From Candidatus Fermentibacterota bacterium (lineage in GTDB: Bacteria > JAFGKV01): 6,439 bases of DNA. The notes beneath the pieces were generated by a model. That model was not told the origin of the DNA and did no database searches. It was given only the letters and a program-made list of their open reading frames with translations. The stretch is from NCBI GenBank assembly GCA_030620115.1, contig JAUXFG010000195.1, positions 1 through 6,439 of the forward strand, in the 5' to 3' direction. The position numbers and the translations under genes are program-made. Within the stretch, counting starts at the first letter, position 1. The number at the start of each line of letters is the position of its first letter. This document shows, piece after piece, positions 1 through 6,297 of the stretch.

Positions 1-341
1 ACCACCGCTCTGGCGATATCCAGCTCTTTGAACGCGAACGAGAGCGTCATGGCCGCCACCAGACCAAGGGTTGCCGCCTGGAGGATCTGTTGGAACTCGC
101 GGAGCCTGCCCAAGGCGGGAGGCCGCCGGTAGAGCCCTCGCGAGGCGTTTGCGGCCAACAAGAGCGGCACCAGAATGGGCAGCAGCATGAGATGATTCCT
201 CAGAGGGTTCACCATCCGCCCCATGAGACCATCCAAGGAGTGGCGAAGCGCCCAACCCAACACCCACGAGGCGGCAGCCAGGAATGTGTCGGAGACTACC
301 AGGTTCCTGTAGAGACGATCGAGTGGGGTTGTTGCTGCCAC
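1..341 (-). CDS. Sugar transferase (polyprenyl glycosylphosphotransferase), N-terminal part
   Basis: This gene is cut by the left window edge; only its first 113 codons are present. The visible protein has three hydrophobic segments at about residues 14-33, 50-66 and 86-104. An LLAANASRGLYRR stretch follows the second, and an acidic linker (LREFQQIL) precedes the third. A short linker ending in LDIARAVV then leads towards what should be a fourth segment. This is the layout of the N-terminal membrane region of WcaJ/WbaP-like enzymes, which move a sugar-1-phosphate onto undecaprenyl phosphate at the inner membrane to start capsule or exopolysaccharide synthesis. The catalytic C-terminal domain lies outside the window, so the assignment rests on topology and the GLYR motif. 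The start used is GTG 341, with AGAGAG seven bases upstream; ATG 410 in the same frame is possible but has no visible ribosome site. A TGA closes the frame upstream of 410. The gene lies downstream of ileS on the same strand. Confidence 0.6.
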   Translation of the reverse strand, partial: MAATTPLDRLYRNLVVSDTFLAAASWVLGWALRHSLDGLMGRMVNPLRNHLMLLPILVPLLLAANASRGLYRRPPALGRLREFQQILQAATLGLVAAMTLSFAFKELDIARAV

Positions 342-417
342 GGGAAATCTCTCTGCGCGGAGCCCGTCAGCCTCCGGGCCCTTGGAGGAGAAGCACAGGG
401 CAACACACATCAAAGAC

Positions 418-467: not shown

Positions 468-3400
468 TCAACCGTTAGCTCGCTCCAGGGCGACCTTTAT
501 GCACCCCTCTCCCCACGGGCACTCCGCGCGTGGCGCGTCCGGAGGAGGCTCCCTTACTTCGATGCTTCGAGCCAGTACTTCCTGTTGCACATAGGGGCCC
601 TGCTCGGAGATGAGCTCAGCCACACCGGGAGCAGGCGTAATGTAAACCACGATCCTATCGCTCACCTCCAGGCCGGCGTCCTTTCGCAGATTCTGGAGCC
701 GGCGGACGAGATCTCTTGCCTCTCCCTCCCTGCGGAGCGAGTCCGTAATCGTGGTACAGAGGATCATCTGCCATTCACGGTTTTCTTGGAAGATCCACCC
801 CTGTGGCGAGTGTTTCTCTATGATCACCTCATCACTGTGTATCTCTATCTCCTCCCCATGGATGAGGACGCGCCAGGGAGTCTCGCCCTTGAGCGCCGCG
901 GCAGCTTCGTCGGGCTTCTCCTTGAGCAACTCCGCCAGGCGTTTGATTCCGCCTCCCAGCCGAGGACCAAGCTTCGAGAAATCGGGCTTGACGCTCACCG
1001 CCGCAAGCTCTTCCCCCTCAGCCGCGAGCCGTATTGCCTTGATGTTGAGCTCGTCCTTAACCAGGGGCTCTACCATAGGCCATGTTTCCATGTCCGATTC
1101 CGGCCACCCCTTGAAGATCGCCTCGCTCAGCGGTTGACGTACTTTGATGCCGGCCCTGTTCCTTGCGGCATGCCCCAAGGTGACCATCTCTTGCGTCATG
1201 GCCATGATACGAACAAGCTCTTCGTCCTCCTTGCTTGGTTCCCATTCCGGGTAGTCTTCGAGATGAACGCTCTCCTTCGAATGCACGCAGCTCGAAGGCG
1301 CCAAGTTCTGATACAATTCCTCGGTAAGGAATGGAATCACCGGCGCAAGAAGTCTACAGAAGCCAAGGAGAGAATGGTACAGGGTCGCATAGGCCGATTC
1401 TTTGTCAACATCAGACTGGCTCTTCCAGAATCTCCTCCGGCTCCGTCGGATGTACCAGTTGGAGAGATCATCCAGAAAAACCTCTGCCGCCTTGACAAAA
1501 CCTGCCAGCTCAAATCCGTCTAGGGAATCACGACCGTGCGCCGCCAATTGCGCTAACCGAGCCCTTATCCATCGGTCCAGGAGCGAAGGAGCGGGCGGCT
1601 CGGCCGGAATATCTTCCGGTCCGAGCCCATCCACCGTGGCATAGGTGACGAAAAAAGCATAGGAGTTCCAGAGCGTGGAGAGCCTCCGCTTCACGTCGGC
1701 AGCCTGTTCATAGCCGAAGTTCAGATTTGCGGATGGATTCTGCCGCGCGAAGATCCAGCGCATGGCCTCCACACCCATTTTCTCCGCCGCCTCATCGAAC
1801 CATATGGCATTGCCCTTTGATTTGTGCATCTCCTCGCCATTTTCATCGCGGACAAGGGCATGGCCCAACACAACCTTGAACGGCTCCTTCTGCTCCAGCA
1901 CGGTGCTCATAGCGAGAAGCGAATAGAACCAGTTCCTGAACTGCCCGGGGAAACACTCGGTGATAAAATCGGGCGGAAACCAAACCTTCCACGCGTCAAG
2001 ACCATGGCGATATCCCAAGGTTGAGTAGGGTACGATTGCCGCGTCGAGCCATGGGTTGCTCACGTCAGGAATCCTGGCCGCCGTACCCCCACAACTAGGG
2101 CAGGCGATCTTTACCGCATCTATCCACGGGCGATGCGGTGAGCGCCCCCTGAACTCTTCCCAGCCCTCCACTGCCCGCGCTTGCAGTTCCTTTTCGCTTC
2201 CCACGACATGGAAATGGTCTTTTTCGCAAACATAGATGGGTAAGGCAAGGCCCCAGTAGCGTTTTTTCGAAATACACCAGTCACTCATGTTCCGGAGCCA
2301 ATCGAGCTCGCGATCGAGCCCGAATGAAGGCATCCATGTGATCCTCTTGGCAACATCTATGATTCGAGGACGCAACTCGTCCATGTGGATGAACCATTCG
2401 TCCACCAACCGAAACACGAGTTCCTCTCCACATCTCCAACATACGGGATAGCGATGCGTATAGTCCTCGATCTTGTAGAGGATCCCCTTCTCTTCCAGCG
2501 ACCGGAACACTTCAGGCGCCACTCCCTTGGCCGACCCTCCGGTGAGCGAGGAAAAACCCTGCATGAAGACCCCATACTCATCCAATGGCGCAACCACCGA
2601 GAGGTCCCACTCCTTGGATAGGGCGAAGTCTTCCTTGCCGCAGCCAGGCGCGATGTGCACGATTCCGGTGCCTTCCGATTCCGATACCTCGTTCCACGCG
2701 ATGACTTTGTGTGACACATCCTCTTGGGCTGGAAGCTCATCAAAGGGCCCCCGATAGCCCCAGCCCAACAAGGAAGATCCCGGCATGGTCTCGAGGATCT
2801 CATAACCGGGTTCGAGAACGGCCTCGGCTCCTTTGGAGAGATAGAGTATCTTCTCGCCTTGGCGGACCTTGAGGTATTCCAGTTCTGGATTGATCGCCGC
2901 GGCCACGTTGGAACTCAGTGTCCACGGCGTAGTGGTCCAGACCAAGAGGTGCTCCCCCTCCCGATCAATCAGCGGGAAAAGCAAAAACACCGCCTTATGC
3001 GTGATCTCCCGATAACCCTCAGTGGCGATTTCATGTTCAGACAAGGCACAGCTGCAGCGCGGGCACCACGGCATCACGTCATGCCCTCGGTAGACCCATC
3101 CGTGCTCAAAACATTTTTTCAGGAACAACCAAATAGTGTAGTTGTTCTCCTCACTCATGGTATAGTAGGAGTTTCCCCAATCCATCCAGTAACCTAATCG
3201 TACCGACTGATCAGTCTGAATCCTTGAGTACTTGAACACACGTTCCTTGCATCGCTGCACAAACGCGGCCACACCGTACTCCTCGATATCCCGCTTCGAG
3301 GTGAATCCAAGCTCCTTCTCGACCTCGACCTCAACCCACAACCCCTGGCAATCAAAGCCATTCTGATACCGCTGCCGGTAGCCGCGCATGCCCTTGTATC

Positions 3401-3608
3401 GCTGGAACACATCCTTGTACGTGCGGCCCCACGCATGGTGAACTGCCATGGGGTTGTTGGCGGTGATGGGACCATCGAGGAATGACCATAGAGGACCGTC
3501 GGCATTTGCCTGTCTTCTCTTTTCGAACGTATCGTGGGCTGCCCAGAACTCAAGCACACGGTGTTCCAAGGGCACAAGATCGAGCTTTGTTTGGACTTGT
3601 CTGAACAT
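468..3608 (-). CDS. ileS: Isoleucyl-tRNA synthetase (IleRS2-like, altered HIGH motif)
   Basis: A complete 1046-residue cytoplasmic class Ia synthetase that charges tRNA-Ile with isoleucine. Visible landmarks are: the Rossmann-fold signature region near 47-66 (ITANNPMAVHHAWGRTYKD), with AVHH at 55-58 where HIGH normally stands; CxxC pairs at 182/185 and 390/393, probably zinc ligands; the CP1 editing domain with WTTTPWTLSSN at 224-234 and GTGIVHIAPGCGKEDF at 313-328; DWCISKKRYWG at 443-453; Cys461 and CPSC at 503-506, a possible second zinc site; MHKSKGN at 594-600 in the KMSKS loop; and the helical anticodon-binding domain from about 675 (APVIPFLTEELYQNL near 755-769). The C-terminal region from about 850 looks like the extension of IleRS2 enzymes rather than the zinc tail of E. 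coli-type IleRS. ATG 3608 is chosen because AGGAGGGG (3614-3621) sits five bases upstream. GTG 3626 in the same frame would add six codons that read through that site. The identity is secure; the IleRS2 subclass is inferred from motifs. Confidence 0.97.
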   Translation of the reverse strand: MFRQVQTKLDLVPLEHRVLEFWAAHDTFEKRRQANADGPLWSFLDGPITANNPMAVHHAWGRTYKDVFQRYKGMRGYRQRYQNGFDCQGLWVEVEVEKELGFTSKRDIEEYGVAAFVQRCKERVFKYSRIQTDQSVRLGYWMDWGNSYYTMSEENNYTIWLFLKKCFEHGWVYRGHDVMPWCPRCSCALSEHEIATEGYREITHKAVFLLFPLIDREGEHLLVWTTTPWTLSSNVAAAINPELEYLKVRQGEKILYLSKGAEAVLEPGYEILETMPGSSLLGWGYRGPFDELPAQEDVSHKVIAWNEVSESEGTGIVHIAPGCGKEDFALSKEWDLSVVAPLDEYGVFMQGFSSLTGGSAKGVAPEVFRSLEEKGILYKIEDYTHRYPVCWRCGEELVFRLVDEWFIHMDELRPRIIDVAKRITWMPSFGLDRELDWLRNMSDWCISKKRYWGLALPIYVCEKDHFHVVGSEKELQARAVEGWEEFRGRSPHRPWIDAVKIACPSCGGTAARIPDVSNPWLDAAIVPYSTLGYRHGLDAWKVWFPPDFITECFPGQFRNWFYSLLAMSTVLEQKEPFKVVLGHALVRDENGEEMHKSKGNAIWFDEAAEKMGVEAMRWIFARQNPSANLNFGYEQAADVKRRLSTLWNSYAFFVTYATVDGLGPEDIPAEPPAPSLLDRWIRARLAQLAAHGRDSLDGFELAGFVKAAEVFLDDLSNWYIRRSRRRFWKSQSDVDKESAYATLYHSLLGFCRLLAPVIPFLTEELYQNLAPSSCVHSKESVHLEDYPEWEPSKEDEELVRIMAMTQEMVTLGHAARNRAGIKVRQPLSEAIFKGWPESDMETWPMVEPLVKDELNIKAIRLAAEGEELAAVSVKPDFSKLGPRLGGGIKRLAELLKEKPDEAAAALKGETPWRVLIHGEEIEIHSDEVIIEKHSPQGWIFQENREWQMILCTTITDSLRREGEARDLVRRLQNLRKDAGLEVSDRIVVYITPAPGVAELISEQGPYVQQEVLARSIEVREPPPDAPRAECPWGEGCIKVALERANG

Positions 3609-3613
3609 CGTTT

Positions 3614-3621
3614 CCCCTCCT
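3614..3621 (-). promoter_or_regulatory. Ribosome binding site of ileS
   Basis: AGGAGGGG on the minus strand, five bases before ATG 3608. It decides the start codon, because an initiation site at GTG 3626 would place this sequence inside the coding region. Confidence 0.85.
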
Positions 3622-3926: not shown

Positions 3927-4595
3927 ATGTGCCCAGAAGACGCTGCAACTGAAGACGTAACCTGCCGACTGGCGGTCGTGGGACGGTTGACCGCGCATGT
4001 GATCCATGATGTGAACAATACATTCACCCCCCTGATTGGGCGGCTGCAAATGCTCCGAATGAAAACCGCCACAGAGCCGGTTGCCATGGGGCCGGAGCTC
4101 GAGACCATAGACCGGGACGCCCTTTCGATAAGCCAGCGGCTCCAAGCGCTCTGTGGACTTGCTCGTCAAGCCGCATACCCCGCCGCTCCAGGTCCCTGCG
4201 TGATCTCTGACTTGCTTCGCGAGGTTGACTATCTTGTGGGCCATCATCTGGCCCGGAGGGGGCTATCGGTTCACCTCGATCTTCCGCCCTCGCTCCCGCC
4301 GATTCTGGCGCGAGCCGCGGACGTAAAGCTCCTGGCTGCCGCACTGATGTTGATGTTCCTGGATGCTGCACCTTCTGAGAGCGAACTGCAGATCAGCGCA
4401 TGTGAAGTTGATCGTGGCCGTGTGCTCTTGCGATGTGCCGTCCAACAAGACCTTGGTGAGATCTCGATCCCTCCAGAGCTGCGCCACCTCGCCTTTTGCG
4501 TCTCGACAGAAGGCATCGAGGTGCAACTGCCTGACCGCCACAACCCATCGAGCAGAATATGGGTGCCTGTGGCCACATGGGGATCAGTGGCATAG
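3927..4595 (+). CDS. Degenerate histidine kinase / histidine phosphotransferase-like protein
   Basis: A 222-residue soluble protein without sensor domain, signal peptide or membrane segment. Residues 15-45 match the first DHp helix of NtrB-type kinases (LAVVGRLTAHVIHDVNN), with phospho-acceptor candidate His27 followed by Asp28 and the usual NN. Residues 57-82 form the second helix of the hairpin. The remainder follows the kinase ATPase domain, with GLSVHLDLPPSLPPILA at 112-128 and LLAAALMLMFLDAAP at 135-149 where the N-box should be. Both expected N-box Asn positions are Ala139 and Met143. The DxGxG box, the ATP lid and the second glycine box are absent. The last strand survives as RIWVPV (210-215). 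The domain should therefore not bind ATP, so a phosphotransferase of the ChpT/Spo0B kind or a pseudokinase is more likely than an active kinase. GGGAGA (3914-3919) supports ATG 3927. The gene is divergent from ileS and 90 bases upstream of the lipoprotein gene. No response regulator is in the window. Confidence 0.65.
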   Translation: MCPEDAATEDVTCRLAVVGRLTAHVIHDVNNTFTPLIGRLQMLRMKTATEPVAMGPELETIDRDALSISQRLQALCGLARQAAYPAAPGPCVISDLLREVDYLVGHHLARRGLSVHLDLPPSLPPILARAADVKLLAAALMLMFLDAAPSESELQISACEVDRGRVLLRCAVQQDLGEISIPPELRHLAFCVSTEGIEVQLPDRHNPSSRIWVPVATWGSVA

Positions 4596-4685: not shown

Positions 4686-5135
4686 ATGAAGAGAGTAATG
4701 CTAATACTCGTGCTCCCGATGGTCCTCTCCTGTAAGGGAGAAGAGAAACCCCGCATGACCATAGACAGCCTACAGCGAGTACTCGTGCATGAGGGCGGGA
4801 TTGTGGTTCAGGAGACCAGTCTCAGAGGGGATAGCGTTCACATCCATGTGGCGCTGACTCGCGACGGCGTAAAGGCGTGGCGATCGGCCCACAGCGCCCT
4901 GGGACGAACTCCGGTTCTGAAATGGGCGACTCTCTCGACTCAGTACCTCAAGGATGGCCAGGTGATCGGCAAACGGCAGCTTCGGATGGGCCAACTCCGC
5001 GATTTGGGGCCAGACAAACCCGAGCTCCACATTGCCATGCCAACACAAGCCGCCCGATCACGCAGCCCACGCCGCCCGCCTTTTCCGGAAGGCACTGAGA
5101 TCAACTGCAAAATCTGGGCTGTACAGTTCGACTAG
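4686..5135 (+). CDS. Putative small lipoprotein, function unknown
   Basis: A 149-residue protein that starts with a short lipoprotein-type signal: MKR, a hydrophobic stretch (VMLILVLPMVL), then a lipobox-like VLSC with Cys16 as the candidate lipidated residue, followed by the polar KGEEKPR. The mature protein would be anchored to a membrane and face the periplasm. The rest is an alpha/beta-looking domain with segments such as SVHIHVALTRDGVKAW and VLKWATLSTQYLKDG, a basic, proline-containing patch (ARSRSPRRPP) near 122-131, and a final NCKIWAVQFD. I recognise no family. It follows the kinase-like gene by 90 bases on the same strand, so co-transcription is possible, but a hairpin fills the gap. 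Its stop codon overlaps that of the convergent ankyrin gene by four bases. Confidence 0.7.
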   Translation: MKRVMLILVLPMVLSCKGEEKPRMTIDSLQRVLVHEGGIVVQETSLRGDSVHIHVALTRDGVKAWRSAHSALGRTPVLKWATLSTQYLKDGQVIGKRQLRMGQLRDLGPDKPELHIAMPTQAARSRSPRRPPFPEGTEINCKIWAVQFD

Positions 5136-5743
5136 CGAGCTTGTCGAGTCTTCAGGAGCTGCACTACTGAGAGGTTGCCACTCTCCTTGGCGAGGTCCAG
5201 GGGCGTGCGTCCCTGGCTATCCAGCGCATTGATGTCAGCCCCATCATCCACAAGCAGCTCTGTGGCACGCCGCTTGCCATATTTCGCCGCAAGGTGGAGC
5301 GGCGTCCTGTCGTGGGTATCCCTCTTATTGAGGTCCGCCCCACTGTCGATAAGCAACTTCGCTAGATCGATTCGATCCAGTGCAACGGCCAGATGAAGCG
5401 GCGTGAGCCTTTGGCCGTCTCGCACATTGACCGAGCCCCCTTTCGCGATCAGCAGCTCGGCAACGTCACGGTGTCCTTGCATTGCAGCCAGATGAAGTGG
5501 CGTCTTCCCATCATTGTCCTGTTGATTGATATCGTCGTAAGAACACTTATCCGCCAACAACAGCACTACTTGACGAGGGCTCCAACCTGCAGCCCAATGC
5601 AATGGCGTTCGACCGTGCTGGTCCCTGGCGTGGACATCGGCGCCTTGCTCGAGCAATGCCTCAATCCGGCCGGCATCTCCAGCTAGTGCTGCCTTGTGGA
5701 GTTGTACTCCCAATGAGCGGCGGGAGTCAGTTTCTGCACCCAT
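5132..5743 (-). CDS. Ankyrin repeat protein
   Basis: A 203-residue protein made almost wholly of ankyrin repeats, which form helix-turn-helix stacks for protein binding. Six units are visible: an N-terminal capping repeat at about 12-44, repeats at 45-79, 80-112, 113-145 and 146-178 carrying TPLHWAA, TPLHLAA, TPLHLAV and TPLHLAA, and a C-terminal capping unit at 179-203 (TPLDLAK). The second unit is two residues longer than the usual 33 (ADKCSYDDINQQ). There is no signal peptide or membrane segment, so the protein should be cytoplasmic. The start is ATG 5743, because AAGGAG (5751-5756) lies seven bases upstream; an in-frame TTG at 5767 has no such support. Its partner cannot be named from sequence. 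The archease gene lies 104 bases upstream on the same strand, and the 3' end overlaps the convergent lipoprotein gene. Confidence 0.92.
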   Translation of the reverse strand: MGAETDSRRSLGVQLHKAALAGDAGRIEALLEQGADVHARDQHGRTPLHWAAGWSPRQVVLLLADKCSYDDINQQDNDGKTPLHLAAMQGHRDVAELLIAKGGSVNVRDGQRLTPLHLAVALDRIDLAKLLIDSGADLNKRDTHDRTPLHLAAKYGKRRATELLVDDGADINALDSQGRTPLDLAKESGNLSVVQLLKTRQAR

Positions 5744-5750
5744 GCCTATA

Positions 5751-5756
5751 CTCCTT
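5751..5756 (-). promoter_or_regulatory. Ribosome binding site of the ankyrin gene
   Basis: AAGGAG on the minus strand, seven bases before ATG 5743. It places the start eight codons inside the longest open frame. Confidence 0.8.
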
Positions 5757-5787
5757 TCGCTTGGCAATGTGCATAAGGGGGAGAGCC

Positions 5788-5847: not shown

Positions 5848-6297
5848 TCACAGATCCAGGGTGACCTTGGTCACCCATGTCCCATCATTGCCCTGCCCGA
5901 GAAAGGGGCAATGCCGCGTTGCCGCCTTGATCTCCTTCTCCATTCGATCCCGCGCCGGATCGAAAAAGAAGCCGTTCAACCGGCAACGAATACTCGTCGG
6001 GGAAACGAGAACAAACTTCGGCGCCCAACAAAGCCACTGGTCGACCTGAGATCTGAAATTGACCTCATTCAGCCAATCGAGCAGCAGCTCGATCTGGTCC
6101 GGGCTACAAAGATCCACCATGGGACCGGGTGAGACTCTTTCGTCGGGATTCTCGAGTACCGCCGAGAACTCGAGCAGGGCTCTTGCCCCGCCCAAGAGAA
6201 GCGCTTCAAAGGAAGGGGCCCAGACCAGGAGCGCAGCGTCGCTCCCCGATCCAAGCTCACGCCAACCACTATTGACGTTCACAGGTTCAGCGTTCAC
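5848..6297 (-). CDS. Archease family protein, divergent
   Basis: A 149-residue protein matching archease, the activator of RtcB RNA ligase, which speeds RtcB guanylylation and turnover in tRNA splicing and RNA repair. The fold landmarks are in order: an N-terminal segment ending in SD then AALLVWAPSFEALLLGGARALLEF (21-44); DQIELLLDWLNEVNF (67-81); a basic-hydrophobic strand with RCRLNGFFFDPARD (104-117); EIKAATRHC (122-130), the family's EIKAxTyH motif; and a terminal VTLDL. Asp20 and Asp148 fall where metal-binding acidic residues are expected, but the usual DHTAD reads GSGSD. No rtcB is in the window. GTG 6297 is the first start after an in-frame TGA. It lies inside short GTTCA repeats and has no good ribosome site; GTG 6282 is an alternative. 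The first eight residues are thus repeat-encoded, and the original N-terminus may have been altered. The family call is firm; activity is uncertain. Confidence 0.8.
   Translation of the reverse strand: MNAEPVNVNSGWRELGSGSDAALLVWAPSFEALLLGGARALLEFSAVLENPDERVSPGPMVDLCSPDQIELLLDWLNEVNFRSQVDQWLCWAPKFVLVSPTSIRCRLNGFFFDPARDRMEKEIKAATRHCPFLGQGNDGTWVTKVTLDL

Follow-up and report, generated by a model that had tools for sequence, protein, structure and literature searches.

A type 2 isoleucyl-tRNA synthetase with AVHH and EMHKS at the class I signature sites in an uncultivated bacterium

Non-canonical type 2 isoleucyl-tRNA synthetases (IleRS2) with a G/AXHH motif, in which the first residue is Gly or "rarely" Ala, have been described in two IleRS2 clades (Brkic et al. 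2023, PMC10485003); the same study states that HXGH is present in all IleRS1. The natural ALHH IleRS2 of Deinococcus radiodurans combines a mupirocin Ki of 6.6 mM with a normal kcat/KM, conversion of its ALHH to HVGH lowers the Ki 823-fold, and GVHH put into two canonical IleRS2 enzymes raises it about 200-fold or more (PMC10485003). For the S. griseus IleRS2, which shares this non-canonical motif, the Ki lies near 10 mM (PMC4861432). In IleRS1, the mupirocin carboxylate bonds with the backbone NH of a Lys in the KMSKS loop (PMC10485003), and the Phe of the HGF motif stacks on the antibiotic (PMC4861432). The AxHH form itself is already published with a tested natural example, and the enzyme described here is another natural instance.

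This enzyme is encoded in the window, the whole stretch of 6,439 nucleotides that we analysed, by the following elements:

468–3608, minus strand: ileS, type 2 isoleucyl-tRNA synthetase (IleRS2), 1046 amino acids plus stop, ATG start at 3608
3616–3621, minus strand: AGGAGG, likely ribosome-binding site upstream of the ATG at 3608
483–1064, minus strand: DUF5915 domain (PF19302, 144 bits), residues 849–1042, C-terminal, part of the long IleRS2-type C-terminus

In an alignment of relatives, the homologues likewise begin with MFxxV. With 696.6 bits the product passes the cut-off of 621.4 for the IleRS equivalog TIGR00392, which identifies it as an isoleucyl-tRNA synthetase, and it falls under the cut-offs of the valS models; the profile search finds tRNA-synt_1, Anticodon_1 and DUF5915 domains in it. 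That it is a type 2 enzyme, as the initial annotation had proposed, is agreed upon by the sequence tree, the DUF5915 C-terminus and the fold ranking. Specifically, a FastTree tree with many open forks, built from 194 IleRS proteins after both signature regions had been cut out, places the window protein among 180 IleRS2 rows and separate from 14 IleRS1 rows with support 100. A structure search with the predicted model (mean pLDDT 88) places Priestia megaterium IleRS2 first, with the top four structures at Z 40.9–42.4, followed by yeast and Thermus IleRS and then IleRS1 (Z 28.7–35.4). Over the full length, no solved structure comes closer in fold than P. megaterium IleRS2 (8c8u, 8c8v, 8c8w; Z 41–42); it is about 33–34% identical, and its wild type has HVGH with KMSKS. 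Judged by homology and predicted fold, the window enzyme is still class I; its signatures have diverged and its class has not. The acquired mupirocin-resistant enzymes MupA and MupB are related, in that their NCBIfam models match the window IleRS, but at 622 and 587 bits against an exception-model cut-off of 1900 we reject identity with either. Within the window, no T-box or other Rfam RNA was detected upstream of ileS at E values up to 1.

Three blocks of the catalytic core depart from those of other IleRS:

3435–3446, minus strand: AVHH where class I enzymes have the HxGH signature, residues 55–58 (A55-V56-H57-H58), from the translation and the structure alignment
1926–1949, minus strand: PGQFRNWF where other IleRS have the DQTRGWF block, residues 554–561
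1818–1832, minus strand: EMHKS where class I enzymes have the KMSKS signature, residues 593–597, with MHKS in 95 of 95 clade members

The placement of AVHH in the HxGH column, claimed initially from the sequence, is confirmed when the protein is aligned with P. megaterium IleRS2 structures. The window's TANNPMAVHHAWGRTYKD lies over TANGLPHVGHALGRTIKD, so that the first His of HVGH pairs with Ala55 and its Gly with His57, and the VHH matches that of the GVHH mutant 8c8w letter for letter. A true HxGH elsewhere in the protein would have overturned this assignment; a regex over the entire protein finds no H.GH and no G.HH, and a single A.HH, at residue 55. The enzyme therefore has AVHH and EMHKS rather than the canonical class I pair of HxGH and KMSKS, and with Ala first and His third it has the sequence form of a G/AXHH IleRS2. 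Both H57 and H58 are invariant in an alignment of 28 relatives, which argues that the motif is not due to chance. In the predicted model AVHH sits at the tip of helix 56–74, and the HIGH motif of class I enzymes sits at such a helix tip (PMC10485003). At the position of the mupirocin-stacking Phe of IleRS1, the window IleRS has Leu585.

To place Ala55 in an evolutionary context, the closest comparison is with Candidatus Eisenbacteria Prado127 and Candidatus Fermentibacteria Zod_Metabat.355, the only other genomes of the window's phylum in the genome collection compared. The window protein groups with their IleRS2 (support 100 in the 194-protein tree), with which it shares 70–71% identity, EMHKS and the flanking motif TANNPM-xVHHAWG; in contrast to the window's AVHH, both have GVHH. 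Because these two genomes of the same family carry GVHH, Ala55 is, on the sequences compared, a local and recent replacement of Gly by Ala in a family that otherwise has GxHH, and this is what makes the window enzyme useful. Among the 94 members of the wider window clade with a readable motif, 91 have GxHH and 3 have AxHH, in keeping with the initial view of AxHH as a less common form of the known GxHH swap, and H57 and H58 are kept in all. The three are the window enzyme (AVHH) and two from Chloroflexi-named genomes, L028 (AVHH) and L078 (AIHH); they need three separate changes on the tree, and Ala would have arisen at least three times within the clade.

The form also occurs outside this clade. 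In a separate pattern search, a type of search whose counts miss diverged sequences, TANGxPAMHH was present in 23 of 81 genomes (our own count of the printed rows) of the phylum of genome G021, which we take to be Deinococcota on the strength of a 1772-bit match between the G021 enzyme and T. thermophilus IleRS (1ILE) that spans all 821 residues. Inspection of twelve AMHH loci found DQTRGWF in all 12 and KMSKS in 11; in the twelfth, L281, the KMSKS regex had caught an earlier, unrelated stretch. For the phylum around G235 the search covered only five genomes, none with AxHH. Because AxHH is found both in window-clade members and, as AMHH, in the phylum of G021, it is present in two or more IleRS2 types that are distant from each other, with AMHH common in the putative Deinococcota, a different IleRS2 clade. 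These AMHH enzymes keep KMSKS and DQTRGWF, whereas the window enzyme, in another deep clade, has EMHKS and PGQFRNWF.

The initial annotation was right about AVHH and missed the altered KMSKS. In the 194-protein tree, all 95 window-clade rows have MHKS, with the first Lys replaced by E, D, P, I, A or S, so that every sampled member is without the first Lys and first Ser of KMSKS; in contrast, a KMSK-like motif is present in 40 of 40 other GxHH IleRS2 and 45 of 45 HxGH IleRS2 rows, and the 40 other GxHH enzymes retain DQTRGWF too. Some of the clade members were collected by a scan with an EMH-containing peptide, which could bias the MHKS count; in genomes sampled without that scan there are 14 clade members, 14 of them with MHKS, versus 40 GxHH enzymes with KMSK. 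Most of the clade, which spans many uncultivated lineages, has PGQFRNWF for DQTRGWF: GQFRNWF is found in 12 of the 14 scan-free members, and the other two, which branch first in the clade, have MREQIRLWF. In the 28-row alignment K596 and S597 are invariant, which fits retained catalysis. The running text of the literature searched contains no mention of an MHKS motif, and no assay of an IleRS from the MHKS clade came to light. The clade-wide change appears to have been little noticed; since Fig. 2b of PMC10485003 shows KMSKS alignments, we do not claim that it is unreported.

The MHKS motif is not unique to the window clade. It is also seen in the IleRS1-type genes L107, G337:C4, G166:C1, G019:C27 and G211:C44, which implies that it arose more than once. 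A requirement of GxHH for MHKS is rejected by the 40 GxHH rows that keep KMSK, and the idea that MHKS tracks altered HIGH motifs generally finds no tight link in pattern-sampled IleRS1: when paired by eye, MHKS accompanies HxGT in three genomes (G337, G166 and G019) and plain HMGH in G211, and HxGT alone is common in this sample. Among the matches listed by the pattern search, roughly 150 IleRS1-type sites include about 55 with the Thr of HxGT, counted by eye. Separately, several IleRS2 rows (L094, L204, L207, L223 and others) have a FATGLPHYGH context, often with KMSKR or KLSKR, and stand apart from the TANG-type IleRS2.

The view that this is the housekeeping enzyme is supported by its being the only match above the IleRS cut-off in its own assembly (98.26% complete, 296 contigs, draft); the remaining hits in the genome are far weaker and come from class I synthetases of other kinds, among them one that carries HMGH and MSKS. 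A second ileS could still lie on a missing contig of the draft genome. Two motifs of the editing domain are conserved:

2919–2936, minus strand: TTTPWT, residues 225–230, invariant in the 28-row alignment
2628–2657, minus strand: HIAPGCGKED, residues 318–327, with a conserved Asp327 that is invariant in the 28-row alignment

We favour, with a probability of about 0.88, the reading that the window gene encodes the housekeeping IleRS2 in an uncultivated bacterium, in which AVHH would bring takeover by His57 and a millimolar-range mupirocin Ki. The catalytic His of HxGH has shifted from the first to the third position, and His57 there would stand in for the lost first His in the transition state, a takeover that has been reported in GxHH and AxHH enzymes. 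His57 is also predicted to clash with mupirocin and so to raise the Ki to the millimolar range, and the acidic Glu593, near the expected site of the mupirocin carboxylate, may disfavour the antibiotic as well. Like the D. radiodurans ALHH enzyme, this is an IleRS2 with Ala first and His third, and hyper-resistance is expected in both; takeover and hyper-resistance are here inferred from other G/AXHH IleRS2, and the predicted resistance is extrapolated from IleRS2 of a different clade. The AxHH relatives of the assayed Deinococcus enzyme keep KMSKS, unlike the window enzyme with its EMHKS. The initial claim linking the motif to natural G/AXHH enzymes agrees with the literature, but its statement that mupirocin binding is abolished does not hold: binding is weakened about a thousandfold, with Ki values in the millimolar range (PMC10485003).

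Why the motifs changed is a different question. There is slightly less than an even chance that an old IleRS2 lineage remodelled its active site to suit catalysis, folding or the handling of tRNA, with mupirocin resistance only a by-product that has no selective role, and this can be compatible with the housekeeping, resistant IleRS2 proposed above. The HIGH, KMSKS and DQTRGWF blocks all differ together in a clade that covers many uncultivated lineages, and the two basal rows with MHKS but MREQIRLWF suggest that the changes accumulated stepwise; however, GxHH also arose alongside ordinary KMSKS and DQTRGWF blocks in 40 rows, and for such enzymes antibiotic selection has been argued (PMC10485003).

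Two other alternatives concern the gene itself. It is improbable that a mistake in assembly or sequencing turned the family's Gly into Ala55: this is a single draft assembly, both same-family genomes have Gly and GCA (Ala) differs from GGA (Gly) by one base, but the independent AxHH of L028 and L078 and the AMHH in 23 of 81 genomes of another phylum show that Ala is tolerated at position one. Most class I synthetases should be badly impaired if they lose both signatures, and this copy has lost both; even so, we consider it very improbable that it is degenerate or catalytically weak while another IleRS does the work, given the lack of a second IleRS in the 98.26%-complete assembly, the intact 1046-residue frame, the conserved editing residues, H57, H58, K596 and S597, and the normal kcat/KM of the D. 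radiodurans ALHH enzyme.

In class I synthetases the KMSKS loop is regarded as a key element of activation with ATP and of the contact with mupirocin. We raise tentatively, as a doubtful but possible reading, that a deep IleRS2 clade replaced both signatures (HxGH by G/A-xHH, and KMSKS by xMHKS with a mostly acidic first residue and a His that never varies where the Ser stood). The resulting activation site would use relocated histidines, and its acidic residue would disfavour the mupirocin carboxylate besides the clash with the third His. The wider clade may matter more than the window enzyme, as its enzymes could, if assayed, show how far both class I signatures can be rebuilt together.

The window also holds other frames. 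A short histidine-kinase-like frame (3927–4595, plus strand), with a weak match to the AtoS model, is divergent from ileS, and a sugar-transferase-like frame (3–413, minus strand; TIGR03025, weak) is cut by the window edge. On the minus strand there are also a 211-residue ankyrin-repeat protein (5132–5767) and, near ileS, an Archease-family protein (5848–6297; PF01951, 55.6 bits), a member of a tRNA-processing helper family.
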